Assembly: GCA_028818375.1 (NCBI GenBank)
Contig: JAPPOB010000007.1
Coordinates: 632,025 to 696,024, forward strand
Origin: Anaerolineaceae bacterium
GTDB taxonomy: Bacteria; Chloroflexota; Anaerolineae; Aggregatilineales; Phototrophicaceae
Direction: 5' to 3'
Length of the DNA stretch: 64,000 nucleotides
Under the pieces are notes generated by a model, which ran no database searches, was not told where the DNA came from, and worked only from the letters and a program-made list of their open reading frames with translations. Made by a program: the position numbers and the translations under genes. Below, one piece after another: positions 17,322-40,916 of the stretch (its first letter is position 1; the number at the start of each line of letters is the position of its first letter).

Positions 17322-17331
17322 GTGATTCACC

Positions 17332-17366: not shown

Positions 17367-17514
17367 TAACAGACAGGACGTCAATTTGAAAGAGCTCGCA
17401 CAATTGCTTTGGTGGACTTTGGATGCGTACATTCTTGCCGACGCCCGATTTGCCGGAGAGGAGAACCCGCAAACCGCCAACGCACTTTCGTAAGGTAATG
17501 ACAAGGAGAATGGA

Positions 17515-22252: not shown

Positions 22253-22282
22253 CAGCGGGCCGAGAGCAGAGAGGTTTTGATT

Positions 22283-23665: not shown

Positions 23666-23732
23666 GAAGGGTAATCCGGGACACGAGAACGCGCCCTGCC
23701 AGCCAAATACAGGCAGAGAGGGTTATTAACCA

Positions 23733-25103: not shown

Positions 25104-25166
25104 GCCGGAAACCATCAGGGCAACACGCGCGCCTGTCCGGGCGGGTGTAGCCGGAAAGGTTGGAGG

Positions 25167-25401
25167 ATGGGCGCCATTGGTGGCCGCAGCGCCGTTGACA
25201 TCATCGCGGCGCACGTTGGGCTTCTGCGTTTCAAAGACCTGGGCGCCTCGGCGGTCCTGCGCGTCCGCCAGGCGCTGCCGGATACCAGAGGCGCCGTGCC
25301 GGACGGCGGACTACGCCACCCAACGCCAACCGGGTGAGGAGGCCACGCTGGTCGCCGACGGCCGTGGCAGCGCGGCCGGGGGCGCCGCAGACTTCCCGTG
25401 A
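25167..25401 (+). pseudogene. Remnant of a fifth MmgE/PrpD gene
   Basis: After GGAGG, an ATG at 25167 opens GRSAVDIIAAHVGLLRFKDL, clearly the family N-terminus, up to RQALPDTRGAVPD. Homology then jumps to the next frame (TADYATQRQPGEEATLVADG, RGSAAGGAA) and stops at a TGA at 25399-25401. About ten codons are missing at the frame switch, and everything after residue about 85 of the family is deleted. The next intact copy begins 41 bp later. It is a decayed copy from unequal exchange in the tandem array. Confidence 0.82.
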
Positions 25402-25442
25402 CATCGTCGTTGCAAGGCGGATTGAGGCAGAAAGGTTATCCC

Positions 25443-26819
25443 ATGAGTGTAGCCACGAATGAAAACGCTGTGGACTTCATCGCCGGGCACGCTGCGACGC
25501 TGCGTTTCGAAGACCTGGGCGAAAAGACGGTGCTGCGCGCCCGCCAGGTGGTTTTGGACACCCTGGGCACCTCTCTGGGTGGCTACCAGACCCGGCGCGG
25601 CCGGATGATGGCGGACTTCGCCGCGCGCCATTACCCGGGTGACGAGGCGACCCTGATCGTGGACGGCCGCGCCTGCAGCGCCGGGGGCGCCGCCCTGGCC
25701 AATGGCGTCATGGCCCACGCCCTGGGCATGGACGATACCAGCCGGCTGGCCGGGCACGTGGCGGCGGAGCTGGTGCCCCTGCTGCTGGTGTTGGGTGAAC
25801 ATTTGCGCCTCGGCGGGCGCGAGCTGATCACGGCGCTGGCGGTTGGCTACGACGTCTTTGAAGCCATACAGCCGACCGTGAAGGAATGGCAACGCGAACG
25901 CGGGCTGGACCACAAAAGTCACGTGGGTTCGATGGCCGCCGCGGTCACGGCCGCGGTCGCCATGGGCCTGGATCAGGAGCAGATCGGCAACGCGTTGGCG
26001 CTGGCGATGGACATGGCCAGCGGCACCGAGCAGTACGTCTACGACGGCTTCGTTTGCGACACGCTGCTGTCCGGCATCGGGGCGCGTAACGGCATTGACG
26101 CGGCGCGCATGGCGGCCTTCGGTTTCAGGGGGCCGCCCGGGGCGCTGGACGGGCCCTACGGTTACTTCCACGCCTATGGTCCGGGCTTTGACCCGGCGGC
26201 CCTGGAGTCGTTGGGGACGCGTCAGGCGCTGGCCGAGACGGGCTTCAAACCGCACGCCGGCTGCCGCCACGTGCACTCCTGCGTGGACGCGACCCAGGCG
26301 CTGCGCAACAGCAACGGGGCGCTGGACCTGGACGCCATCGCCGCCATCGAGGTCGACAGCTACCTGAACGCGATAACGCCGCACTTCCGCGTCGATTCGG
26401 AACCGGCGAACGCCTATCAGGCCTGTTACAGCCTGCCGGTGACCGTGGCCGTCACGCTGCAGCGGGGCAGCTTCTACAAGGCGGACATCCAGGCCTGGGA
26501 TGACCCGCAGGTGCGACGTTTGCGGCGTTTGGTCAGGGTGGGGCTGGAAGAGGAACTGGAAAAGGCCGGCAGGAACGGCTGCGAGGTGCGGATCACCATG
26601 GACGATGGCCGCAAGTATCGCGGTCGGGTGGAGTATGCCCGCGGCGAACCGGAGAACATGATGAGCGACGCCGAGTTCGAGGGCAAGTTCCGCAAGCTGG
26701 GCGGCGATCTGCTGCCGGAAGAGGGCATCGACGCCCTCATCGACGCCTGCGCCCACCTGGAGGAACTGGAGGACGTGGGCCAGTTGCTGCGCCTGACCAC
26801 CGCAGGCGTCCGGGTCTGA
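25443..26819 (+). CDS. MmgE/PrpD-family protein, copy 3
   Basis: The 458-residue third intact paralogue starts at ATG 25443, after the remnant gene. It shares the short GFVCDTLLSGIGARNG loop with copy 2, the LGMDDTSRLAGHVAAEL core (Ala for Ser, and VAAEL for VASEL) and the KPHAGCRHVHSCVDATQAL strand. The N-terminus NAVDFIAGHAATLRFEDLGE is the most divergent of the array. Direction and spacing suit one operon. Function as for copy 1: dehydratase, decarboxylase or epimerase, substrate unknown. Confidence 0.88.
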   Translation: MSVATNENAVDFIAGHAATLRFEDLGEKTVLRARQVVLDTLGTSLGGYQTRRGRMMADFAARHYPGDEATLIVDGRACSAGGAALANGVMAHALGMDDTSRLAGHVAAELVPLLLVLGEHLRLGGRELITALAVGYDVFEAIQPTVKEWQRERGLDHKSHVGSMAAAVTAAVAMGLDQEQIGNALALAMDMASGTEQYVYDGFVCDTLLSGIGARNGIDAARMAAFGFRGPPGALDGPYGYFHAYGPGFDPAALESLGTRQALAETGFKPHAGCRHVHSCVDATQALRNSNGALDLDAIAAIEVDSYLNAITPHFRVDSEPANAYQACYSLPVTVAVTLQRGSFYKADIQAWDDPQVRRLRRLVRVGLEEELEKAGRNGCEVRITMDDGRKYRGRVEYARGEPENMMSDAEFEGKFRKLGGDLLPEEGIDALIDACAHLEELEDVGQLLRLTTAGVRV

Positions 26820-26872
26820 GTCATGCGGGGCGTAGCAACCTGCCGGTTCAGCGAAGGCGGGAAGTTTGCCGG

Positions 26873-28249
26873 ATGAGTACAGACAGGGCTGTCAACGCCG
26901 TCGACGTCATCGCCGCGCATGCCGCGCGACGGCGCTACACAGACCTGGGCGAAAGGACGATCACGCGCGCCCGCCAGGTGCTGCTTGACACGCTCGGCAC
27001 GACCCTGGGCGGCTACCAGACTCGCCTGGGCCGGCTGACGGCGGATTTCGCGGCGTGCCGCTACCCGGGTGAGGCGGCGACGCTGGTGGCCGACGGCCGC
27101 GGCAGCACGCTCGAGGGCGCGGCCTGGGCCAACGGCACCATGAGTAAAATCCTGGGGATGGACGACACGAGTCGCCTCTCGGGCCATGTGGCCTCGGAGC
27201 TGGTGCCGGTCGTGCTGGCGCTGGGCGAGCATCTGCAGCTGAGTGGCCGCCAGTTGATCACGGCGCTGGCGGTCGGCTACGATGTCTTCGACGCCATTCA
27301 GCCGGCTGTGTGGGACTGGCAACGCGAGCGCGGGCTGGACCACAAGAGTCACGTGGGCTCGATGGCCGCCGCGGTGACGGCCGCGGTCGCCATGGGGCTG
27401 GGCCGGGAAGAGATCGGCAACGCCCTGGCGCTGGCGATGGACATGGCCAGCGGCACGGAACAGTACGTCCCGGATGCCGGCTACTGCGACAGCAAGGACC
27501 TGCTGGCCGGCCTCGGCGCGCGCAACGGCATCTTCGCCGCGAGTCTGGCGGCGTCCGGTTTTCGGGGCCCGCCCGGAGCGCTGGACGGTCCCTACGGCTA
27601 TTTCCACGCCTTCGGCCCAGGCTTCGATCCCTCCTTTCTGGAGAACCTGGGGGAACATCAGGGCCTGGCGGAGACGGGTTTCAAGCCGCACGCCGGTTGC
27701 CGTCACGTGCACTCCTGCGTGGACGCGACCCAGGCCCTGCTGAAGCGCAACGGGAGGCTGGACCTGGATGCCATCGTCGTCATCGAGATCGACAGCTACC
27801 CCCTGGCGATCACGCCCGAAAATCGCGTCGATCCGGAGCCGGGGACGGCCGAACTGGCCGGATACAGCCTGCCGGTGACGGTCGCCGTCGTGCTGCAGCG
27901 CGGCAACTGGTACCGGGCTGACATCGAGGCCTGCTGGGACGACCCGCTGACGCGCCGGCTGCGCCGCCTGGTGAAGATCGGGCTGGACGAGCGACTGGTC
28001 GCCGCGGACAGCAATGGCTGCGAAGTGCGGGTCACCATGCATGACGGCGCGCAGTATAGCGGTCGCGTGGAATACGCCCTGGGTGAAGCGGAGAACATGC
28101 TGGACGAGGCGCAGTTTGAAGGCAAGTTTCGCTATCTGGCGGGCGACCTGCTGCCCGACGCGCGGATCGACTCGCTCATTGATGCCTGCGGGCGCCTTGA
28201 GGAACTGGACGACGTCGGCCGGCTGCTGCGGCTGACGTCGGCGCATTGA
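26873..28249 (+). CDS. MmgE/PrpD-family protein, copy 4
   Basis: The 458-residue fourth paralogue carries the longer DAGYCDSKDLLAGLGARNG loop shared with copy 1, so copies 1 and 4 pair in this feature and 2 and 3 pair with each other. Core motifs are intact (LGMDDTSRLSGHVASEL, RERGLDHKSHVGSMAAAV). It has one extra residue in DIEACWDDPLTRRL. It is followed after 25 bp by the enolase-superfamily gene, so the product of the MmgE/PrpD step may feed the next two enzymes. Confidence 0.88.
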   Translation: MSTDRAVNAVDVIAAHAARRRYTDLGERTITRARQVLLDTLGTTLGGYQTRLGRLTADFAACRYPGEAATLVADGRGSTLEGAAWANGTMSKILGMDDTSRLSGHVASELVPVVLALGEHLQLSGRQLITALAVGYDVFDAIQPAVWDWQRERGLDHKSHVGSMAAAVTAAVAMGLGREEIGNALALAMDMASGTEQYVPDAGYCDSKDLLAGLGARNGIFAASLAASGFRGPPGALDGPYGYFHAFGPGFDPSFLENLGEHQGLAETGFKPHAGCRHVHSCVDATQALLKRNGRLDLDAIVVIEIDSYPLAITPENRVDPEPGTAELAGYSLPVTVAVVLQRGNWYRADIEACWDDPLTRRLRRLVKIGLDERLVAADSNGCEVRVTMHDGAQYSGRVEYALGEAENMLDEAQFEGKFRYLAGDLLPDARIDSLIDACGRLEELDDVGRLLRLTSAH

Positions 28250-28274
28250 CCGGAACAGAAGCGGGAGAACGGCC

Positions 28275-29375
28275 ATGAAAATCACCGAAGTACGTTCGAC
28301 CATCGTCCGCATTCCACGCCGCCGCCTGTTGCTCACCTATTACGGTGGGTCGCCGGATACGGCCACAGTCGTGTCGGAGGTGATGACCGACGAGGGCATC
28401 ACCGGCATCGGCCAGACGATCGCGCCAGCGCCCTTTTACGGCGATTCGGTGGAAGTCATCAAGGCGGCCACCGACGCCTACCTGGCGCCCGCCATGGTGG
28501 GCAAGGACCCCTTCGCCATCGAGCAACGCTTCGCCGAGATGCAGGCGCTGAGCGTGAGCGACTACGCCATCACCTCGGTCGAGATGGCCCTGTGGGACCT
28601 CAAGGGCAAGGCGCTGGGCGTGCCGGTCTACGAATTGCTGGGCGGACGCTGCAACGCCGGCGCCCCGCTGCACGCCCTCGCCGACCACGACGACCCCGAG
28701 GCGATGGCCGAGCAGGTCAACCAGAAAGTGGAGCAGGGCTGGACCTGGTTCAAGGCCAAGATCGGTTTTGAAGTGGACCAGGACATCGCCATGTACGCCC
28801 GCATCCGCGAACTGTGCGATGATCGCGCCCGCTTTCAGCTGGACAGCAACACGGGCTACACCCTGGGGCAGGCGGTGCGGGCGCTGCCGGTGATGGAGCA
28901 AATCGGCGGCGTGGGCCTGTTTGAGCAGCCCGTGCGCTATATCGACGAGATGGCCGCGCTGGCCGCTCGTCTTAACACGCCGTTGCAGGCGGACGAAAAC
29001 ACGCTCGGCCCCCGCAGCATATACGAGATCGCGCACGCCGGCGCGGCGCACGTGCTGCACTACAAGCTGGAGAAGTATGGCGGCCTGCTGCCCGGGCACA
29101 AAATGAACGCCGTCGCCGAAGCCGCCGGCCTTGAGATTTCGGTCGCGCCCTATTTCGATATCATGGCCGCCGGCGCCGCCCATCTGGCCGCCTCCACGCG
29201 CATCGCGAAATGGCGCGCCGGCTTTTCGGACATGACCGACACCCTGCTGGCCGAGCCCTACGAGCCGGAGCCGGGGGCGCAGGTGCTGGAGCCGCTGGAA
29301 GCGCCCGGTCTGGGTGTGGCAATCGACCAGGACAAACTGGCATACTGCGCGGCGCATGACGGCAATCTTGGCTAG
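28275..29375 (+). CDS. Mandelate racemase/muconate lactonizing (enolase superfamily) enzyme
   Basis: The 366-residue enzyme has the capping domain followed by the (beta/alpha)7-beta barrel. The catalytic K-x-K is Lys160/Lys162 (FKAKIG); metal ligands are Asp190 (QLDSNTG), Glu217 (LFEQPV) and Asp240 (QADENTLG). The opposite-face base is Lys264 (HYKLEKYGG). This residue set is that of the MLE subgroup, which forms an enolate by abstracting the proton alpha to a carboxylate (cycloisomerase, epimerase or dehydratase). GGGAGAACGGCC precedes the ATG. The substrate is unknown; it sits between MmgE/PrpD and the aldolase. Confidence 0.9.
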   Translation: MKITEVRSTIVRIPRRRLLLTYYGGSPDTATVVSEVMTDEGITGIGQTIAPAPFYGDSVEVIKAATDAYLAPAMVGKDPFAIEQRFAEMQALSVSDYAITSVEMALWDLKGKALGVPVYELLGGRCNAGAPLHALADHDDPEAMAEQVNQKVEQGWTWFKAKIGFEVDQDIAMYARIRELCDDRARFQLDSNTGYTLGQAVRALPVMEQIGGVGLFEQPVRYIDEMAALAARLNTPLQADENTLGPRSIYEIAHAGAAHVLHYKLEKYGGLLPGHKMNAVAEAAGLEISVAPYFDIMAAGAAHLAASTRIAKWRAGFSDMTDTLLAEPYEPEPGAQVLEPLEAPGLGVAIDQDKLAYCAAHDGNLG

Positions 29376-29396
29376 CGACAGGGGCGCAGCGCGACC

Positions 29397-30149
29397 ATGA
29401 GTGACCAGAACCCGGACATGATCACCGAAGATATTCGCAGACCGCCGACGCATCTCATCGAGGGACTGAAGGACATCGGCAGCGCCACCGCCTCCGCCGA
29501 ACTCAGCAAGCTGGGCATCCGTGACGCGCAGATTCGCGGCCCCCTGGCCATGACCCCGGGGGTCTCCGTCGTCGGGCCGGCGCTGACGCTGCAGTGTATG
29601 CCGCGGCGCGAGGACATGATCGACACTGACGAATACGCCAACACGCAACGTCAGTTGCACCGCCACGTGCTGTATCACACGCAACCGGGTGACGTGGTGG
29701 TGGTGGACGCGCGCGGCGACATGGGCAGCGGCGTCTTCGGCGAGATGATGCTGACCTATTTCCAGGGTCGGGGCGGCATTGGCGTGGTGATCGACGGCTG
29801 CATTCGCGATTTCGGCCACGCGCGCACCCTGGATCTGGGCCTGTGGCTGCGCGGCGCCACCCCCAACTTTCACGCGCAGACCAACATCATGCCCTTCGCC
29901 GTGAACCAGCCGATAGCCTGTGGCGACACGCTGGTCATGCCCGGCGACATCATCGTCGCGGACGACGACGGCGCGGTCAACGTGCCCGTCGCCCTGGCCG
30001 AGGAGCTGATCCGGACCGCCGGTGAACATGCCGACTGGGAAGTCTTTTCGCGCATGAGACTGGCCGGGGGCGGCGACCTGCGCAAGTATTATCCGCTGCG
30101 GGAAGACGCCCGCGAGGAATACGAAGCCTGGCGCCGCAGCCAGGAATGA
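29397..30149 (+). CDS. RraA-like / HMG-CHA aldolase family protein
   Basis: The 250-residue protein belongs to the RraA/HMG-aldolase (formerly menaquinone methyltransferase) family. The typical segment VVVDARGDMGSGVFGE, the divalent-metal and oxaloacetate-binding DGCIRDFGHARTL (Arg-Asp) and PGDIIVADDDGAV are all present. True members cleave 4-hydroxy-4-methyl-2-oxoglutarate-like acids to pyruvate. As the last enzyme of the cluster it may release pyruvate from the ring-opened or isomerised acid. Its TGA overlaps the next ATG (ATGA), linking the M23 peptidase gene to the transcript. Confidence 0.86.
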   Translation: MSDQNPDMITEDIRRPPTHLIEGLKDIGSATASAELSKLGIRDAQIRGPLAMTPGVSVVGPALTLQCMPRREDMIDTDEYANTQRQLHRHVLYHTQPGDVVVVDARGDMGSGVFGEMMLTYFQGRGGIGVVIDGCIRDFGHARTLDLGLWLRGATPNFHAQTNIMPFAVNQPIACGDTLVMPGDIIVADDDGAVNVPVALAEELIRTAGEHADWEVFSRMRLAGGGDLRKYYPLREDAREEYEAWRRSQE

Positions 30150-31312
30150 GACGTACGACTATGCGAGGCGGCGCAACGCCCCTGTGGCGTCGCCTGACCG
30201 GCTGGCTGCTGCTGCTCGGCGCCGTCCTGCTCTTCCTGGCGACCGGCGCGCTGGTATTGACCGACCTGCTGCCGGTCGATGACGCGGCGGCGCCGGTTAC
30301 GGCCGAGCCGCCAACGGCGCCGGTTGTGCCTGGCGAGGGCCGGCCCGTCCGGCCCGCCACGACCGTGAATCTTCCCACGCTCAGCCCGGCGCAGCTGGAT
30401 GTCTTCCTGCAGCGCTCCGTCGTTCCCGGCCCGCCCCTGAGGGACGTGCTGCTGGAACGCAACGTTTACGATCCCTTCACCGTCATTCCCGAGCGCCAGC
30501 GCAACGAGGTCATCCAGTACACCATTGAGAAGGGCGATACGGTCATCGGAATCGCCGAGCGCTTCGGCCTGCAACCGAATACCATCGCCTGGTCCAACGA
30601 ACGCTCGATCATCCAGAGTTTGCGTCCGGGCAGGGTGCTGAACATCCCGCCGGTGGATGGCGTGTATCATACGGTCATTGGCGCGCGCAATATCGCCGAG
30701 ATCGCCCGTTCCTACGACGTGGATGACCCCTGGCTGGTCATCGATTCAGAATTCAACCAACTCTTCGGCGCGACGCCGGAGACCGTGCTGCCCAGCGGAA
30801 CGCGCATACTCATCCCCGGAGGCGAGGCGGAACAGATCGCCTGGACGCCGCGCGTCCAGCGCGAGGGTGGCGCCAGCCGCAGCGGCGGCAGCTATGTCTC
30901 CTTCGCAGTCGGCCAACCGGGCAGTTGCGGCCGCGTCCAGAACGCCACCGGCAGCTTCTGGACCAACCCCATGAGCAGCTACACCATCACCCAGGGTTTT
31001 TCGATTTACCACAGCGGCATCGATCTGGCCAGTGTCGTTGGCGCGCCGGTGCGCGCGGCCAATGGCGGCGTGGTCATCTTCTCCGGCTGGAACAGCTATG
31101 GCTACGGCTACACCGTCGTGCTGTCGCACGGGCCCTTCACCACGGTTTACGGGCATCTGAGCCGCATTGACGTGCGCTGCCGCCAACTGGTGAGCGCCGG
31201 CCAGGTGGTCGGCGGCCTGGGCAACAGTGGCAACTCAACCGGCCCGCATCTGCACTTTGAGATCCGCTATCTGGACAGGCCGCAGAACCCGGCGGCCACC
31301 ATCGGCTTCTAG
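30146..31312 (+). CDS. LysM-containing M23 metallopeptidase, membrane-anchored
   Basis: The 388-residue envelope protein has one N-terminal membrane helix (about residues 12-38), a Pro/Ala-rich linker, a LysM module (QYTIEKGDTVIGIAERFG, ending RVLNIPP) with a weaker second repeat ending ILIPGG, and an M23 (LytM) endopeptidase domain. Zinc and catalytic residues are visible: His289 and Asp293 (HSGID), the VYGHLS His, and His368/His370 (PHLHFE). It should cut peptidoglycan cross-links. It starts inside the previous stop (ATGA) and converges on the hydrolase, sharing CTAG. Confidence 0.92.
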   Translation: MRRTTMRGGATPLWRRLTGWLLLLGAVLLFLATGALVLTDLLPVDDAAAPVTAEPPTAPVVPGEGRPVRPATTVNLPTLSPAQLDVFLQRSVVPGPPLRDVLLERNVYDPFTVIPERQRNEVIQYTIEKGDTVIGIAERFGLQPNTIAWSNERSIIQSLRPGRVLNIPPVDGVYHTVIGARNIAEIARSYDVDDPWLVIDSEFNQLFGATPETVLPSGTRILIPGGEAEQIAWTPRVQREGGASRSGGSYVSFAVGQPGSCGRVQNATGSFWTNPMSSYTITQGFSIYHSGIDLASVVGAPVRAANGGVVIFSGWNSYGYGYTVVLSHGPFTTVYGHLSRIDVRCRQLVSAGQVVGGLGNSGNSTGPHLHFEIRYLDRPQNPAATIGF

Positions 31313-32163
31313 CGCAGCGTCGCCAGCCAGACAGTCAGGGCCGACCGCGTCTCGTCCGGATGGCTCAGCGGGAAGAGGTGCCCACAGGCCGGCAGGCTGG
31401 CTAGCGTCGCCGAGGGCAGCAAGGCCCGGGCGCGCCAAAAAGAGTCGGCGGGGAAGGTCTCGCTGTCCGCACCCTGCAGCAGCAGCGTCGGCATTTGCCC
31501 TTCCAGACGCGCCAGCGCGGACCATGGCTCCAGCTCCACCGCGCTGTAGTACCAGGCTTCCCAGTCCCTGCGCCAGCCGAGTTCAAGGCCGGCGCCGTCA
31601 CGGGCGGGGCGCGTCATGTTGCGGGTGTAGGCCCACAGCGCCGCGTCGCTCCAGTCGGCGAAGAGTGGCTTCGGACGCCAGTAGGTGAAGGCGGCCTCCT
31701 GCGAGGCGAAGCGATGTTTGCGCTCCAGCGCGCCCTGTGCCAGCGGCATCTGGTCCAGCTCACCGCGATCGCGCAGACCACGCAGCAATCCCAAACGTTC
31801 TTCGCTCAGGATGGCGGGGTCGAGCAGGCTCAGGGCGCGAAAACGCTGTGGCTCGCGCAGGGCGGCCAGCAGCAGCACAACGGCCCCCATGGAATGGCCC
31901 AACGCGACAGCGCTTTCCAGGCCATGCTGCGCCATACCAGCCAGCAGGTCATCGGCCAGCGATTGCCAACTGCCGGGCGCAATGGGCGGCGGCCCGCTGA
32001 CGGGCCACATGGCGCGCGGCGGCAGGGCCAACAGGCGCCAGTCGCGCGCCAGCGGCGCCAGCAGGGGTTCGTAGCAGCGCGGCGGGAAGCCGTTGGCCGG
32101 CGCCAGCAGCAGGGTCGGGGATGACGCCTGGCCGCCCAGCCGCTCCAGCGGGTACCCGCTCAC
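31309..32163 (-). CDS. Alpha/beta-hydrolase family protein
   Basis: The 284-residue protein has LLLAPANGFPP at the first strand, a GHSMGAVVLLL nucleophile elbow, LLLQGADSETFP around the acid and PACGHLFPLSHPDE around the histidine, so all triad elements are present. The frame stays open far upstream but the extra part is low-complexity; the start used is GTG at 32163, overlapping the methyltransferase TGA (GTGA). It is an esterase, thioesterase or lactonase of unknown substrate. It ends in the same CTAG as the convergent M23 peptidase. Confidence 0.85.
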   Translation of the reverse strand: MSGYPLERLGGQASSPTLLLAPANGFPPRCYEPLLAPLARDWRLLALPPRAMWPVSGPPPIAPGSWQSLADDLLAGMAQHGLESAVALGHSMGAVVLLLAALREPQRFRALSLLDPAILSEERLGLLRGLRDRGELDQMPLAQGALERKHRFASQEAAFTYWRPKPLFADWSDAALWAYTRNMTRPARDGAGLELGWRRDWEAWYYSAVELEPWSALARLEGQMPTLLLQGADSETFPADSFWRARALLPSATLASLPACGHLFPLSHPDETRSALTVWLATLR

Positions 32164-32927
32164 GGCCCCTGCCGCAGGCGCGCGACGACCCGCAGCCGCA
32201 CGTAGTCGGCGACCCAGTGACCGTCGCGCCATTGCGTCGGCCGCAGCTGCCGCTCGCAGGCGTCCAGTACGCGCTCCCGCCCGCCCGCATCGAGCCGCTC
32301 CAGCGCTTCGCCCAAAAACATGGCGTACCAGTTTCGCAGGCCGTCTTCGCCATCCAGGGGCGTGGGCCGCGGGAAGCGTTGCGCCCCCAGCACCTGGAAG
32401 CCCTGCGCTTCCAGCAGGGCGCTGTAGGCTGTCGCTGCCGGAAAGTACCAGGGGAAACGGCCCGGGACATGCTGGCCAACGTCGCCCAGGGCCGCGCAAA
32501 AGGCTTCGTAGAGCCTGCGTACGTTGCCCGCGCCGCCGAACTCGGCGACCAGGCGACCGCCCGGCCGCAACGCGCGGGCCATGCAGGCCGCCGCCCCGTT
32601 GGCATCCGGCATCCAGTGCAGGGCGGCGTTGGAGAAAATGGCGTCGAAGGGCGCGTCGACCTGGAAGTCCTGGCCGTCCGCCTGGATGAAGCGCAACTGT
32701 GGGTAGTTGGCGCGCGCCTGGCGCAGCATGGCCGCGTCGCTGTCCAGCCCTGTGACGCAGGCGCCCGAGTCGGCGATCTGTTGCGTCAGATGTCCCGTGC
32801 CGCAGCCAAGGTCAAGGACGCGTTCGCCGGGTTGCGGCGCCAGCAGGTCGATCAGGCCCTCACCCAGGCGCGAGACGAAGCCGTGGTGCGCCTCGTAGAG
32901 CGCGCTGTCCCAGCGCCGGTCTGTCAC
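32160..32927 (-). CDS. Class I SAM-dependent methyltransferase (trans-aconitate methyltransferase-like)
   Basis: The 255-residue protein has motif I VLDLGCGTGHLTQQIAD, an acidic TGLDSD strand end, IQADGQDF and FDAIFSNAALHWM, the last resembling trans-aconitate and malonyl-ACP methyltransferases. The GTG start (32925-32927) lies inside the left copy of the 59-bp repeat, whose other copy overlaps the map stop 2.3 kb away. Originally the gene therefore followed map with 7 bp between them. It now sits downstream of the restriction-modification island, so its expression may have changed. Methyl acceptor unknown. Confidence 0.86.
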   Translation of the reverse strand: MTDRRWDSALYEAHHGFVSRLGEGLIDLLAPQPGERVLDLGCGTGHLTQQIADSGACVTGLDSDAAMLRQARANYPQLRFIQADGQDFQVDAPFDAIFSNAALHWMPDANGAAACMARALRPGGRLVAEFGGAGNVRRLYEAFCAALGDVGQHVPGRFPWYFPAATAYSALLEAQGFQVLGAQRFPRPTPLDGEDGLRNWYAMFLGEALERLDAGGRERVLDACERQLRPTQWRDGHWVADYVRLRVVARLRQGP

Positions 32928-32971
32928 GACGCTGTCAGATGGCGGTGACCAGTACGGGCGCGCCGCGGGTG
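32913..32971. repeat. 59-bp direct repeat, left copy
   Basis: This matches 35244-35302 at 58 of 59 positions. It contains the last 11 codons and stop of map plus the first codons of the methyltransferase, so map-end sequence is present where no map gene is. The single difference is a synonymous base (GTA for GTG). Confidence 0.93.
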
Positions 32972-33007
32972 TGAGACAGAGTTTGCCAAAGCCTCACTCT
33001 TCGCCCT

Positions 33008-33649
33008 TCAGGTCTCGTCGGCTTGTTCAAATTCCTCCAGCCTGGTCCTCGCTAGGTGTTCAAGACGACGAGCTTGAGCCCAAAGAGTACGACGTATACC
33101 GGGCCTTACACTGCGCTCGCTAATAACCCAGGCGAGATTGGCAATCGTTCGCGCTCGTCGCGCCAACCGGATATCTGGATGTTCGCGCTGTTTGCGCAAT
33201 GTCACTGGCAACACGGAAACGCGAACCGATTTTGGCAAGTCAATTGCTTCGGCGGGTCTGATATCTTTTTCGTTCAACACGACCGAGAAAATCGAGTGTT
33301 GCAAGGCCTTTTGATAAACTGTGTATTCGGCTTGATCCAATGTTTCATTGGCGTCGCTACTCGTCAGGTTCCAAAATGGCCACATCTCAATTTCAGCTAC
33401 TTCGAAAGGATCAAGTACGCTCATTGCAACAGCGTCGGTCCGCTGATTCGTCAAGTGTCGCCGGATGCGCCCTCGTAGTTTCTCCCTTGTTCGGCCAACA
33501 TATATAGGTTCTCCATCATAGTCATAAAACAGATATACTCCGTACTGGCAATCCCCAACGCGTCGACCGTCTCCATAGTCCGTATTCAGCGCGGCCATCA
33601 CGCCGTCGTACAGCACCCTGACTTCATCCGGTTCTCTTCTCGGCATCAT
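33008..33649 (-). CDS. GIY-YIG family nuclease, probable type II restriction endonuclease
   Basis: The 213-residue protein has the GIY-YIG core: YGVYLFYDYDGE (GVY at residues 37-39) and PIYVGRT (YVG at 50-52), then an Arg-rich helix GRIRRHL and a downstream Glu in DQAEYTVYQKAL. Its position next to a C5 methyltransferase suggests a restriction enzyme of the Eco29kI kind. The chosen start is the ATG at 33647-33649, which overlaps the methyltransferase stop (ATGA); an upstream in-frame ATG at 33712 would overlap by 67 bp. The recognition site cannot be read. Confidence 0.8.
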   Translation of the reverse strand: MMPRREPDEVRVLYDGVMAALNTDYGDGRRVGDCQYGVYLFYDYDGEPIYVGRTREKLRGRIRRHLTNQRTDAVAMSVLDPFEVAEIEMWPFWNLTSSDANETLDQAEYTVYQKALQHSIFSVVLNEKDIRPAEAIDLPKSVRVSVLPVTLRKQREHPDIRLARRARTIANLAWVISERSVRPGIRRTLWAQARRLEHLARTRLEEFEQADET

Positions 33650-34659
33650 TGGCGTTGGCGTAGCAGCGGCATCAGGCAATGTATTGCCAACCATTCGATG
33701 ACTGGCACGCACACTGCGTCTCCAAGAGCAAACATCGCCTGAGAAGGCGTAACCGAATCGTAGCGCAAATGCTCGGCGCCCTGAAGCCGCGCATATTCAG
33801 TCAAGTTCATCCAGCGTACGGCAATGTCGCCGCAGCCTGCGCGAACAATCGCTTGTCTTGCCGAGCCACCGCGCGTTGTACGCAGGGTACCAGCGATTTC
33901 GTCCGAGCGTACTTCCCACACTGCTTTACCTCGTCTCGTGCGCCTAAAGGCACCATAATAGCCCGGCCAGAAACGATTCCGATACCGTGAAACACGGTTA
34001 GACTGAACCGGCGACAAGGTTTCCAGGAATCCGTGCAGTCGATCGGGCGGCCACCACTCGCCGTCCCTTTCGGCTATACTGTCCAGTCGAAGGTCCTTGC
34101 GGCTTTTTGGTGGTTCAGGCAATTCGATAGGCCCCTTGTGACCAAACAGAAATACTCTCGCGCGGCTTTGAGGGACAAAAGCGTTGGCGTTAACCACGAT
34201 ATGCGCCGACTGATATCCAAGTTGGCGAATGCCCTCAACAATTGTCTCCCAATCCTTACCATCGTTCGCTGTAAGAAAACCCATAACATTCTCAATCATT
34301 AACGTTCGTGGCGCGCGACCTTTCATATCGTCGAGAATCCGCAGGAAATCTAATACAAGGCCAGACTGCGCACCGTTCAGACCTTTGTACTTCCCGGCTA
34401 GCGACATATCCGTGCATGGAAACGAAGCTGTAACTATGTCGGCATCTGGAATATCGTCACCATGCAGCGCGCGAATGTCACCGACGTGCAACTCCTCTCG
34501 CCCCCAGTTTTCGGAATAAAGCTTGGCTTTGGTTTCGTCGTTGTCGTTGGCAAAGATTGTTTTGATGCCGACGACCTCCAGCCCGGCGCGCATAAGGCCC
34601 ATACCTGCAAAGAACTCTATAGCGCGGAACACGAAGGTTTGCCTTTGATTTCGGAACAT
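33646..34659 (-). CDS. DNA (cytosine-5-)-methyltransferase
   Basis: The 337-residue Dcm/HpaII-type methyltransferase has motif I IEFFAGMGLMRAGLE (residues about 13-27), motif IV ASFPCTDMS with the catalytic Cys82, motif VI IENV, motif VIII QSRARVFLFG and motif X GDAVCVPVIEWL. It should protect host DNA from the adjacent GIY-YIG nuclease. The start used is ATG at 34657-34659, shortly before motif I, overlapping vsr by 43 bp; in-frame ATGs at 34722 and 34764 are less likely. Target sequence unknown. Confidence 0.88.
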   Translation of the reverse strand: MFRNQRQTFVFRAIEFFAGMGLMRAGLEVVGIKTIFANDNDETKAKLYSENWGREELHVGDIRALHGDDIPDADIVTASFPCTDMSLAGKYKGLNGAQSGLVLDFLRILDDMKGRAPRTLMIENVMGFLTANDGKDWETIVEGIRQLGYQSAHIVVNANAFVPQSRARVFLFGHKGPIELPEPPKSRKDLRLDSIAERDGEWWPPDRLHGFLETLSPVQSNRVSRYRNRFWPGYYGAFRRTRRGKAVWEVRSDEIAGTLRTTRGGSARQAIVRAGCGDIAVRWMNLTEYARLQGAEHLRYDSVTPSQAMFALGDAVCVPVIEWLAIHCLMPLLRQRQ

Positions 34660-35135
34660 GAATTCGTTGACAAAAGCCACGCGGACGCCAACATAATTAC
34701 TTGATTCAAGCCTAGTTTCCATTTTCCGGTCAGCGCGCATTCCCAAATTGTCATTACCCGCCATCCCTCCTCAAGAAGCAAACGGCGGTTTATATTGTCG
34801 CGTTCCACATTTCCAGCGACTTTTCGCATCCAATAGTCGGTGTTGGAATTTGGCATCCTGCACCGCGGGCAAGAATGGCCATGCCAAAGACAGCCATTGA
34901 CGAAGATGACAGACCTGTAGCGACGAAACACAAGATCAGGTTTTCCCGGCAAATCCTTGACGTGCAAGCGGTAGCGGAAGCCCAGCGCATGTAAGCCCTT
35001 TCGAATCATGAGCTCGGGCTTGGTGTCTTTGCTCCCGATTTTTGACATTACATCGCTGCGTTTTTCGGGAGAAACGGTATCTGTCAAATAACTCTCCTTA
35101 CCGGCATCACGAGATGTTGCATGGATTATAGTCAT
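34617..35135 (-). CDS. vsr: Very short patch repair (Vsr) mismatch endonuclease
   Basis: The 172-residue protein aligns along the Vsr family: SKIGSKDTKPELMIRKGL, LPGKPDLVF with the catalytic Asp, FVNGCLWHGHSC with the zinc/catalytic histidines, NVERDNINRRLL and GWRVMTIWECAL. Vsr nicks 5' of the T in T:G mismatches that arise when 5-methylcytosine deaminates, which explains its pairing with a C5 methyltransferase. The start ATG has GGAAA upstream. The C-terminus is about 20 residues longer than usual and overlaps the methyltransferase. It is first in the island operon. Confidence 0.9.
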   Translation of the reverse strand: MTIIHATSRDAGKESYLTDTVSPEKRSDVMSKIGSKDTKPELMIRKGLHALGFRYRLHVKDLPGKPDLVFRRYRSVIFVNGCLWHGHSCPRCRMPNSNTDYWMRKVAGNVERDNINRRLLLEEGWRVMTIWECALTGKWKLGLNQVIMLASAWLLSTNSCSEIKGKPSCSAL

Positions 35136-35158
35136 AGATGTTTCCGAAGCACTAATGT

Positions 35159-35186
35159 TTTATACTTTTAGTGGATGTTGTCTCAA
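35159..35186 (-). promoter_or_regulatory. Promoter of the vsr-methyltransferase-nuclease operon
   Basis: On the minus strand TTGAGA (35181-35186), a 16-bp spacer and TATAAA (35159-35164) lie 24 bp upstream of the vsr ATG. It is inside the island, so the RM genes carry their own promoter. Confidence 0.6.
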
Positions 35187-35243
35187 ACCCTCGAATACAG
35201 GGCATCCAGGTCGCCCCCCCGCGCGACTGAAGGCAACATCCCG

Positions 35244-35302
35244 GCGCCGGTCTGTCACGACGCTGTCAGATGGCGGTGACCAGCACGGGCGCGCCGCGGG
35301 TG
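35244..35302. repeat. 59-bp direct repeat, right copy
   Basis: The matching copy of 32913-32971. It contains the real end of map (stop at 35266) and, beyond it, the first five codons of the methyltransferase (GTG ACA GAC CGG CGC), after which the sequence changes to island DNA. Confidence 0.93.
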
Positions 35303-36012
35303 ATGACGACCGTGTGCTCGAATTGCACCGCCGGCGCGCCGTCTACGGTGCGCAGGGTCCAGCCGTCGTCGGCCTTGCGGATGTGCGGTTTGCCCGTGGT
35401 CAGGAAGGGCTCAAGCGTCAACACCATGCCTTCGCGCAGCTTGTCGCGCGCGCCGCGGTTGAAGAAGTGGGGTATGGCGTGCGGCGGCTCGTGCAGGCCG
35501 CGGCCCACGCCATGGCCGCCCAGTTCGCGAATGATGCGGTAGCCGGCGGGCCGCGTGACGCGCTCGACGGCCCTGCCGATCGCCGAGAGGCGCCGTCCCG
35601 CGCGCGCCGCGTCGATGGCGGCGTCCAGCGCCTGACGGCCCGTCGCCAGCATCCTGCGCCTGGCGTCGGAAACTGGCGGCACGCCAAAGCTGCTGCCCGT
35701 ATCCGCGTAATAGCCGTCCATTTCGGCCGAGACGTCGATGTTAACCAGGTCACCGGCCTGGATGAGGCGCCGCCCGGGGATGCCGTGGGCGGCCTCGTCG
35801 TTGATACTGATGCAGGTGTGGCCGGGGAAGTTGTAGGTCAGGATGGGCGCGGAACGCGCGCCCTGCTGCTGCAGAAAACGCGCGCCGATGGCGTCCAGCT
35901 CGGCGGTGCTCATGCCAACCTCAATGGCCGCGCCCATGTGCTGCAGCGTCAGGCCGACGATGCGGCCGATTCGCAGCAGGGCGGCCAGTTCCGCCTCGTT
36001 GCGGACAGTCAT
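35266..36012 (-). CDS. map: Methionine aminopeptidase, type I
   Basis: The 248-residue enzyme removes the initiator Met from nascent proteins. All landmarks of M24A are present: His76 (AAHG), metal ligands Asp93 and Asp104 (NIDVSAEMDGYYADTG), His167 (GGHGVGRGLHEPP), Glu201 (LEPF) and Glu232 (FEHT). There is no N-terminal zinc-finger extension. It lies 6 bp downstream of moaA. Its last 11 codons form part of the 59-bp direct repeat that bounds the island; the protein itself is complete. Confidence 0.94.
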   Translation of the reverse strand: MTVRNEAELAALLRIGRIVGLTLQHMGAAIEVGMSTAELDAIGARFLQQQGARSAPILTYNFPGHTCISINDEAAHGIPGRRLIQAGDLVNIDVSAEMDGYYADTGSSFGVPPVSDARRRMLATGRQALDAAIDAARAGRRLSAIGRAVERVTRPAGYRIIRELGGHGVGRGLHEPPHAIPHFFNRGARDKLREGMVLTLEPFLTTGKPHIRKADDGWTLRTVDGAPAVQFEHTVVITRGAPVLVTAI

Positions 36013-36018
36013 GCCGGT

Positions 36019-37026
36019 TCAGCCACCGATATGGTACATCTCCACCTTGTGCTCGCGCGGTTGCGCCAGCGCAAAGCGCTCTTCGGAATAGCGGTCCTCG
36101 CGCACACGCCAGGCGCCGCGCACGATGGCCTCCAGTTCGTCATCGCCGGCGCCGGCGCGCAGCGGCCCGCGCAGGTCGATGCCCTCACTGGCGAAAAGAC
36201 AGGTGAAGAGTCGCCCTTCCGGCGAAAGGCGCAGGCGGGTGCAGGCGCCGCAGAAGGGTTGGGTGACCGAAGTGATCAGGCCAATTTCACCGCCGCCGTC
36301 GCGGTAACGGAAACGACGCGCCACCTCGCCAGGGTAGTTGCGGCCCAGCGGCTCCAGCGGCAGTTCGGCGTCGATGCGGGCCACGATTTCTGCCGCCGGC
36401 ACGACGTCGTCCATGCGCCAGCCGTTCATCGTGCCCACGTCCATGTACTCGATGAAGCGGATGATGTGACCGTGCTCGCGGCCATAGCGCGCCAGATCGA
36501 CCAGGGTGTGGTCGTTGAGTCCGCGCTGCACCACGGCGTTGATCTTGATTGGGCCCAGGCCCGCCGCATCGGCGGCGCGAATGCCCTCCAGCACGCGCCC
36601 GACGCTGCCGCGTCCGCCGCTCATAAGTTTGAAAATGTCTTCATCGAGGGTGTCGAGGCTGACCGTCACGCGGCGCAGGCCGGCTTCCTTCAACGCCGGC
36701 GCGTGCTCCGCCAGATGCCAGGCGTTGGTGGTCATGGCGAAGTCCTCGACCGCGTCGTACTGCGCCAGCAGCCGCACCAGTTCCGTCAGACCGGGTCGCA
36801 CCAGCGGTTCGCCGCCCGTCAGGCGCAGCTTGAGTGCGCCGAGGCCCACGACAACGCCCACCAGACGCGTGATTTCCTCAAAATCCAGCAGCTCCCGGCG
36901 CGGCAGAAAGCGATAGCCCTCGCCGAAGACCTCGGCCGGCATGCAGTAGCCGCAACGGAAGTTGCAGCGGTCGGTGACCGAGATGCGCAGGTCGCGCAGG
37001 GGGCGGTTGAATCGGTCTTCAGGCAT
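36019..37026 (-). CDS. moaA: GTP 3',8-cyclase (molybdenum cofactor biosynthesis)
   Basis: The 335-residue radical-SAM enzyme makes the first pterin intermediate of molybdenum cofactor from GTP. The N-terminal cluster is Cys21, Cys25, Cys28 (CNFRCGYC); the C-terminal second cluster is FCGACTRLRLSPEGRLFTC; the chain ends in the essential Gly-Gly (YHIGG). The start ATG at 37024-37026 gives MPEDRFNRPLRDLRISVTDR, the usual N-terminus; an upstream in-frame ATG would add 46 atypical residues. No other moa genes are nearby. It is divergent from the kinase-like gene. Confidence 0.95.
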   Translation of the reverse strand: MPEDRFNRPLRDLRISVTDRCNFRCGYCMPAEVFGEGYRFLPRRELLDFEEITRLVGVVVGLGALKLRLTGGEPLVRPGLTELVRLLAQYDAVEDFAMTTNAWHLAEHAPALKEAGLRRVTVSLDTLDEDIFKLMSGGRGSVGRVLEGIRAADAAGLGPIKINAVVQRGLNDHTLVDLARYGREHGHIIRFIEYMDVGTMNGWRMDDVVPAAEIVARIDAELPLEPLGRNYPGEVARRFRYRDGGGEIGLITSVTQPFCGACTRLRLSPEGRLFTCLFASEGIDLRGPLRAGAGDDELEAIVRGAWRVREDRYSEERFALAQPREHKVEMYHIGG

Positions 37027-37114
37027 GAACAGGCCGGCTGTTTTCGGGTACAGTGACCATTTCAGTCTACAGGTTGGCGGGGGGTCTGGCAAGGCGGCCA
37101 CCCGCGGGACGGAC

Positions 37115-38077
37115 ATGCTCAGCGAGCCCGCATTATCGCATGACCGCATTGGCGAGGCCGTCAAACGCCTGTGGGAGCGGCAGGTTGTGACGCTGGCGTT
37201 TTTGCCACCGGGTGGCGAGTGTTCCTGGGGTTACCGGCTGAACACGGCCGCCGGCGAGTGCCTGTTCCTCAAGCTGTCGCAGCCGCGCGTCTGCGGCTCA
37301 GCGCTTTGCGAGCAGAACCTGGCCGCCGCCGACAGTCTGTCGCGCGCTCTCGGCGCGGAGCGCATCGTCAGCGCCTGGCGTTCCCGCCGGGGACGCTTTC
37401 TGGAAACCATCGACGCGTATCAGGCGCGGCTGCAGCCCTGGGTGGAAGGCGTGGCCTTCATGGACCTCCCCGACGGGCCGGATAGCGGGCAGCAACGCAG
37501 GCTGGGCGACCTGGTGGCGGACATCCACAGTTTCAGACTGGCGCAGCGGCCGCTGGACGAGGACTACCCGGCGGCCGAGATTCGTGACTGGCCGCAACTG
37601 CTGAAAGCGCTGGACGCGCCGGCGACGGAGCGGAGCCCGACGCAACTGGCGCTGGCGGACCTGCTGCGGGAGGCGCAACCGCGCATGGCGCGCTGGATCG
37701 AGGCCTGGCATGATCTTGTGGGTCGCGTGCGTGCGGCGGGGCATCCCTGCGTCTTTTGCCATGGCGATCCCTCCGGCGGCAACGTCCTGGTCAGGCCGGA
37801 CGGCAGCCTGGCGCTGGTCGACCTGGACGCGCCCGCCTGGGCGCCGCGCGAGCGCGATCTCTTTCATTTGCGTCTGTGGCCCGCCGCGCTGGAGGCGTAT
37901 CATCGTCGCGTTCCGGACGTCGAGGTGGACGCCGTCTTGCTGCGTCTTTACCAGCTGGCGTGGGACATCGGCGAGGTGGTGGACTATGGCTGGCGCGCCT
38001 TGCTGACGCAGCAGAGCGTAGCGCAGCAGCGGCACGACCTGCGCGAGTTGCGCCGGCACCTTGAGGAGGCCATTTGA
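37115..38077 (+). CDS. APH/choline kinase-like phosphotransferase
   Basis: The 320-residue protein has the aminoglycoside-phosphotransferase fold: a nucleotide lobe with YRLNTAAGECLFLKLSQP carrying the Lys, Brenner's motif HGDPSGGN (His216-Asn223), and the metal Asp236 in LVDLDAP. Family members phosphorylate small alcohols, such as homoserine, choline, methylthioribose and aminoglycosides. With a threonine-synthase-like gene directly after it (TTGA overlap), a homoserine-kinase role is attractive but unproven. The start is ATG at 37115; the open frame extends upstream into moaA antisense and is not used. Confidence 0.82.
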   Translation: MLSEPALSHDRIGEAVKRLWERQVVTLAFLPPGGECSWGYRLNTAAGECLFLKLSQPRVCGSALCEQNLAAADSLSRALGAERIVSAWRSRRGRFLETIDAYQARLQPWVEGVAFMDLPDGPDSGQQRRLGDLVADIHSFRLAQRPLDEDYPAAEIRDWPQLLKALDAPATERSPTQLALADLLREAQPRMARWIEAWHDLVGRVRAAGHPCVFCHGDPSGGNVLVRPDGSLALVDLDAPAWAPRERDLFHLRLWPAALEAYHRRVPDVEVDAVLLRLYQLAWDIGEVVDYGWRALLTQQSVAQQRHDLRELRRHLEEAI

Positions 38078-39144
38078 GACCCGAACTGGTTTGCGAGGAC
38101 TGCGGGGCGGTCCGTGGCGCGCTGGACTGGCGCTGCGAGGGCGCGCGCCTGCGCATCGCCAACCTGCCGCGCTACGACCCCGCCGCTTGCGACAGCCAGG
38201 AGTCAGGCCTGTGGCGTTACGCAGCCATGCTGCCTGCGAGCCGTCGCGTTTCCCTGGGGGCGGGCGGCACGCCGCTGGTTCCCGTGCGACTCGATGCCCA
38301 CGCCTTCCAGGCCAAGCTGGAATACTGCAACCCGACCGGCTCCTTCAAGGACCGCGGCACGGAAGTCATGGTCAATCACTTCATCGCCAATGGCGTCGAC
38401 GAGGTCGTCGAGGACTCCTCGGGCAACGCCGGCGCCTCGCTGGCGGCCTGTGTGGCGGCGGCCGGCATCCGCGCGCGCATCTTCGCGCCCGCCGACGCGC
38501 CCGCTGCCAAACTGGCGCACATCCGCGCCTACGGCGCCGACCTGGTGACCGTGCCCGGTCCGCGCCAGGCGGCCGCCGACGCCTGTCTGGCCGCAACGGC
38601 GACGGCGGTCTACGCCAGCCACGCCTGGAGTCCCTTCTTCGTCGCCGGTCAGATGACCTGCGCCTGGGAGATCTTCGAGCAGGGCGGCGCGCCCGACGTG
38701 GTGCTCTGCTGCGCGGGCCACGGCGGGCTCTTCACCGGTCTGGCGCGCGGCTTCGCGGCGCTGAAGGACGCCGCTCTGATCGATCGGCTGCCGCGGATGG
38801 TGGTCGCCCAGGCGGCGGCCTGCGACCCGCTGGTGCGCGCCTGGGAGAGCGACCTCGACGAGGCGCCGGCCGTTTCGCCGACAGCCGGTGTCGCGGACGG
38901 CATTTCGGTGGCGCGGCCGGTGCATGGCGCGGAGATCCTGCGCGCGCTGCGCGAAACCGATGGCGCTGCGCTGCGCGTCAGTGATGGTGAGATTCTGGCC
39001 GCGCAGAAACGTTTGTGGCGTAAGGGACTGTTGGTGGAGCCGACCAGCGCCGTTCCGGTGGCGGCGCTGTTGAGCGGGCAGTTGCCTCTGGAAGGCCGCA
39101 TCGTCATCCCGCTGACCGGCAGTGGCCTCAAGTTGCTGACGTGA
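38074..39144 (+). CDS. Threonine synthase-like PLP-dependent lyase
   Basis: The 356-residue fold-type II enzyme starts with a short zinc-ribbon remnant (CEDCGAVRGALDWRC), then GGTPLVPV, NPTGSFKDRG with Lys92 as PLP lysine, and SSGNAGASLAA for the carboxylate loop. These fit threonine synthase, which converts O-phosphohomoserine to threonine. It is somewhat shorter than many threonine synthases. It starts at TTG overlapping the previous stop (TTGA), so it is coupled to the kinase-like gene and the pair may do homoserine to threonine. Related lyases (cysteate synthase, diaminopropionate lyase) are not excluded. Confidence 0.84.
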   Translation: MRPELVCEDCGAVRGALDWRCEGARLRIANLPRYDPAACDSQESGLWRYAAMLPASRRVSLGAGGTPLVPVRLDAHAFQAKLEYCNPTGSFKDRGTEVMVNHFIANGVDEVVEDSSGNAGASLAACVAAAGIRARIFAPADAPAAKLAHIRAYGADLVTVPGPRQAAADACLAATATAVYASHAWSPFFVAGQMTCAWEIFEQGGAPDVVLCCAGHGGLFTGLARGFAALKDAALIDRLPRMVVAQAAACDPLVRAWESDLDEAPAVSPTAGVADGISVARPVHGAEILRALRETDGAALRVSDGEILAAQKRLWRKGLLVEPTSAVPVAALLSGQLPLEGRIVIPLTGSGLKLLT

Positions 39145-40916
39145 ACAGGGCAGGTCTACCGTCCATACGCAGGCACTGGTTTGCGGCCTGCCTCTTCTAT
39201 CTGGCTTGCGCCGTGGCGATCACCTGGCCGCTGGTCTCCCGCATGGACACCCATCTGGCCGGTATTGAGTTCAGGGACAGCGCCGAGCGGGCGCATCATG
39301 TCTGGTGGCTGGTCCATGCGCTGCGAACAGGTCAACCCTTGTTTTGGCTGCCCAATCTGGGCTGGCCGGATGGCATGGCGGGCATCACCCTTGTGGGTCA
39401 TCCGCTGCAGCACATACCGGCAGCGTTACTGGCGCTGTTTCTGCCCCTGCTGATAGCCGACAACCTGGCGCTGCTCTTGCAGATCGCGTTGATGGGTCTT
39501 GCCATGTATGCCCTGGGCCTGCATCTGGCCCGCGGCTGCCGTATTGCCGCCCTGGTCGGTGGCCTGGTGTTTATGGCAGCGCCGACCTTTCAGGCGCATT
39601 TGGGCGACGGTCACAACGTTCATCATTCGCTGGCCTTCGCCCCGCTCTTTGTGTTGGCGCTGCTGCGCATGAAGAGCGCAACGGGTCGATCGCGCCGGCG
39701 CTGGTTTGTCGCCGGATCCCTGAGTTTCGCGCTTGTCAGCGGCGGCCATGCGCTGAATGCCATTCACATGACGATGCCACTGGCATTCGTGTTGTTTCTG
39801 CAGGGCTTGCTGCGGCGGGACTGGCGCGGTCTTTTGCAACTCGTGCTGGTTTGCCTTTCAGGAGCAGTCGTGCAATTCCTGATCCTTCTTCCCGTCATTG
39901 GCGAAACATTGGGGCATCAGGCTTACACCGGCGCAGGTGGCGACATGAGGTTCAGTCTGGACCTGCTCGGCATTGTGACTCCATCCCATTTCCATCCACT
40001 GTACGGCCATCTGGAACACGCGCTACCGGTGCTCGGTTCCCGACCCGCGGAGCGCTCGGCCTGGGTCGGGTTCATTCCTGGCGCGCTGACCCTGGCGGCG
40101 CTGGCGCATGGGCGCGGCCGCCTGTGGCTGGGACTGGCGCTGATTTCCTGGGTGCTCGCGCTGGGGCCGTTTCTGAAACTTCTGGGCGAACCCCTGACCG
40201 TCCTCGTGGATGGTCGCTCCAGCTATGTGACCATGCCCCAGGTTCTCTTCGAGAGTCTGCCCGTTCTAAACATTGAACGAACACCAGGGCGCTTCACTTA
40301 TCCTCTTGCGCTGGCGGTGGCCTGCCTCGCCACACTGGGTATGGCGTTGCCGCCGTCCAGGCGGTGGTTGCAGGGACGTCGTCGAAGACTTGTGGCAACG
40401 ACAGTCTTGCTCATCCTGATCCTGTTTGATTACCAATGGTACTGGCCCTTGCCAACCTTCGACGCGACTGTCCCGGCGGAGATTGCCGCGCTGGGCCAGC
40501 GGCCGGGTTTGCGCGCCGTATTGAATATTCTAGGGCAGTATCGGGATCAGCGCAATGCGGCCATGTGGTTGCAAACGGCGCACGGGTTGCCAATCCTGGG
40601 CGGTCAAGTGACTCGTCACTCGCCTGTCAACCCGGCGCGCTTGCTCTTGCTGCGGGAGACGCTTGACCCGGCGCTGCTGCAAGTGGCGGGCGCCGATATC
40701 GTGATCCTGCACCTGCGCTACGCTTCGCAAGAGCAACATGCACTGGCTGATGCCAGGCTGGGGCTGCCGATCTACCTGGACGAAGACTACGCTGTTTACG
40801 AGACGCCCGCACGGATGCTGCGCCAGTTAGGTTCGTCCCACCGGCAGCGACACAGCGATTTAGGGGATCAACCCGTGTGCCGCTGTATTCCCCGCAGACG
40901 GGCTGGCTGGATGTAA
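39141..40916 (+). CDS. Multi-spanning membrane glycosyltransferase-like protein, main part (probable frameshift at 3' end)
   Basis: 591 codons with about 11 membrane helices. The protein resembles large GT-C-like (GT39/PMT-type) membrane proteins: an acidic/His first periplasmic loop after WPLVSRMDTHLAGIEFRDS, then GHPLQHIPAALLALFLPLL and TPGRFTYPLALAVACL. Starting at GTG overlapping the previous stop (GTGA). Homology-like content ends near YAVYETPA (about codon 555); the last 36 codons are basic and unlike a membrane protein tail. The following frame continues with a beta-sandwich typical of this family, so a frameshift between about 40810 and 40876 is likely. Confidence 0.68.
   Translation: MNRAGLPSIRRHWFAACLFYLACAVAITWPLVSRMDTHLAGIEFRDSAERAHHVWWLVHALRTGQPLFWLPNLGWPDGMAGITLVGHPLQHIPAALLALFLPLLIADNLALLLQIALMGLAMYALGLHLARGCRIAALVGGLVFMAAPTFQAHLGDGHNVHHSLAFAPLFVLALLRMKSATGRSRRRWFVAGSLSFALVSGGHALNAIHMTMPLAFVLFLQGLLRRDWRGLLQLVLVCLSGAVVQFLILLPVIGETLGHQAYTGAGGDMRFSLDLLGIVTPSHFHPLYGHLEHALPVLGSRPAERSAWVGFIPGALTLAALAHGRGRLWLGLALISWVLALGPFLKLLGEPLTVLVDGRSSYVTMPQVLFESLPVLNIERTPGRFTYPLALAVACLATLGMALPPSRRWLQGRRRRLVATTVLLILILFDYQWYWPLPTFDATVPAEIAALGQRPGLRAVLNILGQYRDQRNAAMWLQTAHGLPILGGQVTRHSPVNPARLLLLRETLDPALLQVAGADIVILHLRYASQEQHALADARLGLPIYLDEDYAVYETPARMLRQLGSSHRQRHSDLGDQPVCRCIPRRRAGWM

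Follow-up and report, generated by a model that had tools for sequence, protein, structure and literature searches.

A predicted restriction-modification cassette flanked by a 64-bp target duplication at the map-methyltransferase junction of a Chloroflexota genome

How does a predicted restriction-modification (R-M) cassette without a recognisable recombinase gene come to lie between two long, nearly identical copies of host sequence? We addressed this question in a window of 64,000 nucleotides (positions 632,025 to 696,024 of contig JAPPOB010000007.1, GenBank assembly GCA_028818375.1) from an Anaerolineaceae bacterium of the phylum Chloroflexota. In this window, whose numbering is used below, genes for a Vsr-type endonuclease (vsr), a C5-cytosine DNA methyltransferase and a GIY-YIG nuclease separate map from the gene for a class I S-adenosylmethionine (SAM) methyltransferase (Table 1). 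We consider it likely that the cassette was acquired horizontally, once, and entered the map-methyltransferase junction by illegitimate joining that duplicated 64 bp of the target.

The initial annotation had placed the three genes between 59-bp direct repeats with 58 identities. That core (32913-32971 and 35244-35302) was recovered, and it proved to be part of a 64-bp repeat with 62 identities, the second mismatch lying just beyond the core. The ungapped score of the repeat is 58. When flanks of related loci were paired crosswise 300 times, the best score was 18, so that the repeat is far above chance. When the genome was searched with the island and its repeats, no additional repeat copy was found, as the annotation would have it; the single extra match is vsr-like and lies on another contig. 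The duplicated stretch spans the end of map, a 7-bp gap and the start of the next gene, and host genes and cassette are all read in one direction on the minus strand. Because the duplication covers both gene ends, the insertion broke neither neighbour: when the insert and one repeat copy are removed, the joined sequence runs from the map stop through 7 bp to the methyltransferase start, as had been predicted.

The empty site reconstructed in this way is real. In both of the congeners compared (G001 and G002), the junction is uninterrupted and the methyltransferase gene, whose orthologues are 84% (G001) and 90% (G002) identical, directly follows map, with a gap of 8 bp rather than 7 bp. The flanks of the island are collinear with both congeners, and the GIY-YIG gene has no match in either. 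The empty junction in both indicates that the insertion is derived in the window lineage and that the repeat is a target duplication. Nor did any relative carry the three genes in place without the repeats: among 61 genomes, GIY-YIG homologues with E below 1e-100 were confined to this genome and G035 (78% identity), and the same three-gene cassette of G035 is located elsewhere in its genome. The cassette is also found in other Anaerolineae and Chloroflexi; a weak partial GIY-YIG match (E 7e-4) was seen in G013.

The two mismatches of the repeat are informative about its history. The single core mismatch, at position 19 of the repeat, had been called synonymous. The mismatch is there, but it lies in the left copy, whose dead map tail carries a derived G-to-A change as read along the genes; the right copy, belonging to the working map gene, is unchanged and retains the base common to both congeners. 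At position 60, the derived base is in the right copy and falls in its dead methyltransferase part. Derived bases in the dead halves indicate that the duplication arose with the insertion and drifted afterwards. At two further positions, and in a 1-bp length difference, the repeat copies agree with each other and differ from both congeners; sharing variants that the congeners lack, both copies are of host-lineage origin. An assembly artefact or a contaminant join might be suspected in a draft genome of 12 contigs (96.75% complete, 2.92% contamination), but it is extremely improbable: the contig is 696 kb long, the flanks are collinear with both congeners, the cassette clusters with those of other Chloroflexota, and the mismatches sit in the dead halves.

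The insert itself is 2,267 bp long. Its GC content, calculated per 500 bp, is 50-56%, versus 61-74% outside (28000-39999). Homology to the G035 cassette is confined to the stretch from ~33024 to ~35160, leaving short non-matching stretches at both ends. The sequence that separates the right repeat copy from the conserved cassette, here called filler, had no hit better than E 0.07 in this genome and its two congeners, except itself, and no match among plasmids. It has an imperfect inverted repeat, GGATGTTG.../...CAACATCC (35174-35241), the right arm of which extends 3 bases into the right repeat copy. The folding energy of this inverted repeat is ordinary (z -0.72; 37 of 200 shuffles fold as well), and an Rfam search of 32800-35400 gave no match. 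We also considered, and dropped, an endonuclease cutting at CCGCGG, of which each repeat copy has one site near an end; the window contains 67 such sites, and this putative recognition sequence was taken by analogy with R.Eco29kI.

These ends bear on a Campbell-type homologous integration, in which a circular or linear molecule from the same species, already bearing the cassette next to 64 bp of the junction, would have recombined with the chromosome. Such an event predicts that both repeat copies belong to this lineage, as we found, and a repeat of this length allows some homologous recombination. It requires, however, that precisely this junction had earlier been captured by such a molecule. 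GIY-YIG matches were found in 14 plasmid records, the best of which is 64.6% identical over part of the query, and no plasmid matches the filler. We regard this route as unlikely. Phage records gave three GIY-YIG matches (best, 49.5% identity over 78% of the query), and among viral contigs 29 stretches fit a peptide pattern, none of which encodes a relative.

Is the long repeat a property of the cassette or of this particular event? We compared 81 loci, namely the window and the best 80 of 181 relatives found. Long direct repeats were sought within 700 bp at 74 testable loci, window included (repeat scores are listed for the best 40 of the 74); L047, L050, L053, L067, L089, L098 and L106 were excluded as lying near contig ends. 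Repeats above chance flank two cassettes, those of the window and of L100, a Verrucomicrobia contig in which a methyltransferase-GIY-YIG pair lies between repeats of at least 328 bp (3139-3466 and 5766-6093; 97% identical). By eye, the L100 repeat matches the 3' terminus of a gene for a P-type ATPase, and its right copy reaches the contig end. Since 72 of the 73 other testable cassettes lack such a repeat, it marks this event rather than the element or a standing transfer mechanism, and the earlier suggestion that the island is moving at present finds no support. A wider test, farther out, detected direct repeats of 135 bp (89%; also present inverted) in L051 and 155 bp (84%) in L062, and short ones in L054, L082, L101 and L116. 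In L096, a 140-bp direct repeat (96%; 1278-1417 and 5964-6103) surrounds a longer region that includes vsr and the genes for a methyltransferase and a GIY-YIG nuclease.

In agreement with the initial annotation, no recombinase or integrase is present among the recognisable genes and proteins of the insert. This would fit a model in which a tyrosine or serine recombinase supplied in trans integrated the cassette at a specific site, with the repeats as attL and attR; long direct repeats at the end of a gene do look like attachment sites. On the other hand, in both copies the sequence, which covers two gene ends, is that of the host lineage itself, and with long repeats missing within 700 bp of nearly all other testable cassettes there is no attachment site common to the family. 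Cassette ends differ among sites in 13 aligned rows, the relatives occupy several unrelated sites, and close relatives located elsewhere without a common end sequence have already largely been seen. We therefore find site-specific integration very unlikely.

One neighbourhood of vsr-type cassettes is seen repeatedly in Anaerolineae and related Chloroflexi: the cassette is flanked by a sulfatase gene and an ABC-transporter operon in L044, L046, L049 and L052, and by the same operon and an aminotransferase gene in L041, L042, L048 and L056. None of the cassettes in this neighbourhood has long repeats within 700 bp, and the neighbourhood was not detected around the best sulfatase matches of this genome and G002. 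L046 and the G035 locus, L036, are the same contig. The L045 cassette lies in a sulfatase-aminotransferase neighbourhood in which the ABC-transporter operon was not seen between the two genes. In a GIY-YIG tree of 72 of the 81 rows, the window stands beside L044 (support, 92/85), inside an 11-row Chloroflexota clade. The nine rows left unplaced because their extracted frames were short (L040, L043, L047, L048, L052, L055, L064, L083 and L112) include L040, which at 82% identity is the closest among the best 80 of 181 relatives.

A different mode of transfer is apparent elsewhere in the family. All 81 loci were scanned for inverted repeats accompanied by 8-9-bp duplications, and four of them (L057, L061, L068 and L114) have a clean pair of inverted repeats with a perfect 8-bp duplication. 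The inverted repeats are 22-24 bp long, begin with GG and contain ATTA, and a gene for an IS1595-family transposase lies directly upstream of the methyltransferase gene. Four more loci (L062, L064, L078 and L079) have an upstream match to an IS1595-type transposase. The four complete elements (L057:3067-5864, L061:2899-5881, L068:99-2848 and L114:2734-5850) are about 2.75-3.1 kb long, with transposase, C5-methyltransferase and GIY-YIG genes in one direction; in L057, L061 and L114 the transposase frame shares 1-4 bases with the methyltransferase frame. In Pseudomonadota, Acidobacteriota and Chloroflexota, a transposase operon carries R-M genes as passengers. A literature search (including PMC4046053) returned no title on IS1595 elements with an R-M passenger; most subscription literature was outside its scope, and we do not claim that such elements are unpublished.

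Given these cousins, with their inverted repeats and 8/8-bp duplications, the window island could be read as a degenerate IS1595-type passenger transposon that has lost its transposase. This is very improbable. The insert lacks terminal inverted repeats with an 8-9-bp duplication, its repeat is 64 bp long, and no IS1595 transposase was found among the insert proteins or in the genome.

The route that we favor is illegitimate joining. An incoming R-M cassette would have entered the tightly packed map-methyltransferase junction a single time, on the branch leading to this genome, by recombination of a repair or replication type. Widely staggered nicks in the target may have been filled in; alternatively, a replication fork may have switched to the incoming fragment, copied across it and resumed 64 bp upstream. 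Three observations point this way: the end sequences have no traced source, nearly all tested related cassettes lack such a repeat, and a search of 21 genomes, this one included, turned up no Ku gene. The last makes classical nonhomologous end joining unlikely. Once in place, the cassette could be deleted precisely by homologous recombination between the repeat copies; no such deletion was observed. R-M systems in general persist by restricting foreign DNA and by punishing their own loss, as this cassette may do.

The long duplication is not a general habit of this host, either, since two other C5-methyltransferase loci and a second vsr locus of the genome show no comparable two-sided direct repeat. 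Weaker repeats at these loci (79% over 73 bp and 74% over 184 bp) are on one side only. The second vsr gene, in L039 (G000:C7:1303000-1314000, about 5670-10513), is near a gene for an 860-amino-acid (aa) protein that looks ATPase-like by eye, and this locus is possibly another defence locus.

Several points weigh against illegitimate joining of an acquired cassette. The mode of joining is deduced, and a two-step history may likewise explain the 64-bp length and the filler. The insertion is seen in a single genome of the species, and the restriction activity of the cassette is predicted from its genes. Most relatives have no long repeat, which gives no support to a particular tie of this R-M family to long duplications. 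In a further reading, the cassette would spread by itself without a recombinase: its own endonuclease would break incompletely methylated DNA, and repair would copy the cassette in, with duplications of variable length. Should this be true, the variable duplications would be those of 64 bp here and at least 328 bp in L100, in a family whose cousins were also captured by IS1595 transposons. We think self-spread of this kind quite unlikely.

At 70 of the 81 loci, a C5-methyltransferase gene on the same strand ends within 300 bp of the GIY-YIG gene. The GIY-YIG residues Y60, Y71, R82, H86, E129 and N147 are 99-100% conserved over the 72 rows of the tree, so that the catalytic set is complete in the window protein, and a predicted structure model of this protein shows the GIY-YIG fold. 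Alignment with the G035 orthologues suggests that the C5-methyltransferase likely starts at a GTG at 34632, not at the first ATG of its open reading frame, and that vsr likely starts at a TTG at 35087. Upstream, a presumed promoter block resembling AAAACATTAGTGC ... TATAAT was seen by eye in 9 of 13 aligned rows, the window counted, and not in L040, L042, L043 or L045; a strict sigma-70 scan did not pick up the block in the window.

Table 1. Features of the island and its flanks (window coordinates)
Feature	Position	Strand	Remarks
Class I SAM methyltransferase gene	32160-32927	-	Downstream neighbour in reading direction; intact; GTG start within left repeat copy
Left copy of target duplication	32908-32971		64 bp; holds working methyltransferase start and dead map tail
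Stretch from repeat to GIY-YIG stop	32972-33007		36 bp
GIY-YIG nuclease gene	33008-33712	-	Presumed restriction endonuclease, 234 aa; Pfam PF01541
C5-cytosine DNA methyltransferase gene	33646-34764	-	PF00145, TIGR00675; PADLOC MTase_II
vsr, T:G mismatch-type endonuclease	34617-35135	-	PF03852, TIGR00632; PADLOC Vsr
Presumed promoter, AAAACATTAGTGC ... TATAAT	35125-35162	-	By-eye similarity among aligned rows
Filler, right repeat copy to conserved cassette	35161-35238		No homology in G035
Right copy of target duplication	35239-35302		Holds working map end and dead methyltransferase start
map, type I methionyl aminopeptidase	35266-36012	-	TIGR00500; upstream neighbour in reading direction; intact

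Elsewhere in the window, two families of 300-nucleotide direct repeats were observed, one with four copies about 1.4-1.7 kb apart (22265-28233) and one with three copies about 1.7-1.8 kb apart (13991-19022). Within both families the repeats are about 67-84% alike, and they are probably paralogous genes.

How does the island compare with known systems? R-M insertion with long target duplication in Helicobacter pylori was reportedly described by Nobusato et al. in 2000 and Furuta et al. in 2010, whose work we know through papers that cite it. These papers credit both studies with the long target duplication (PMC3874152, PMC3031569, PMC1643837). According to them, target duplications that accompany R-M insertion can be long, on the order of 100 bp, and variable in length (PMC3874152, PMC3031569), and some other R-M systems show short duplications and imperfect inverted repeats at insertion (PMC3874152; also PMC3031569 and PMC1643837). 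As in the H. pylori cases described there, the window island is a unit between long direct repeats with a related genome that lacks the insertion (PMC1643837, PMC3031569, PMC3874152). It has the three marks of such insertions for which we tested: a long flanking repeat, an empty single-copy target, and neither a recombinase nor terminal inverted repeats. Unlike the H. pylori cases, it belongs to another phylum, its duplication is 64 bp rather than on the order of 100 bp, it includes vsr, and substitutions in the dead halves polarise the event.

Its genes, too, have familiar counterparts. The GIY-YIG domain is shared with the endonucleases of the type II R-M systems R.Eco29kI and R.Hpy188I, and we take the conserved Y, Y, R, H, E and N set to correspond to residues of Eco29kI; R.Hpy188I was not among the 50 VIA-align structure matches listed for the GIY-YIG model. 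Having vsr directly beside the C5-methyltransferase gene is presumably the arrangement of dcm/vsr-type pairs, from which the window cassette differs by its linked GIY-YIG nuclease. From integrase islands it differs in having no integrase gene and no attachment site common to its family.

R-M insertion with long target duplication is already known, and the window island is a well-documented new example, not a new principle. For Chloroflexota it provides a clean, polarised case: two congeners have the empty site, and later substitutions fall in the dead halves. It also offers a possible reason for the survival of such duplications in compact operons, namely that they leave the neighbours whole. 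Less ordinary is that one R-M family shows both modes: related methyltransferase-GIY-YIG pairs travel in the IS1595 passenger transposons of L057, L061, L068 and L114, whereas the window cassette, without a transposase, inverted repeats or an 8-bp duplication, came in with a long duplication, so that one cassette allows a comparison of the two routes.

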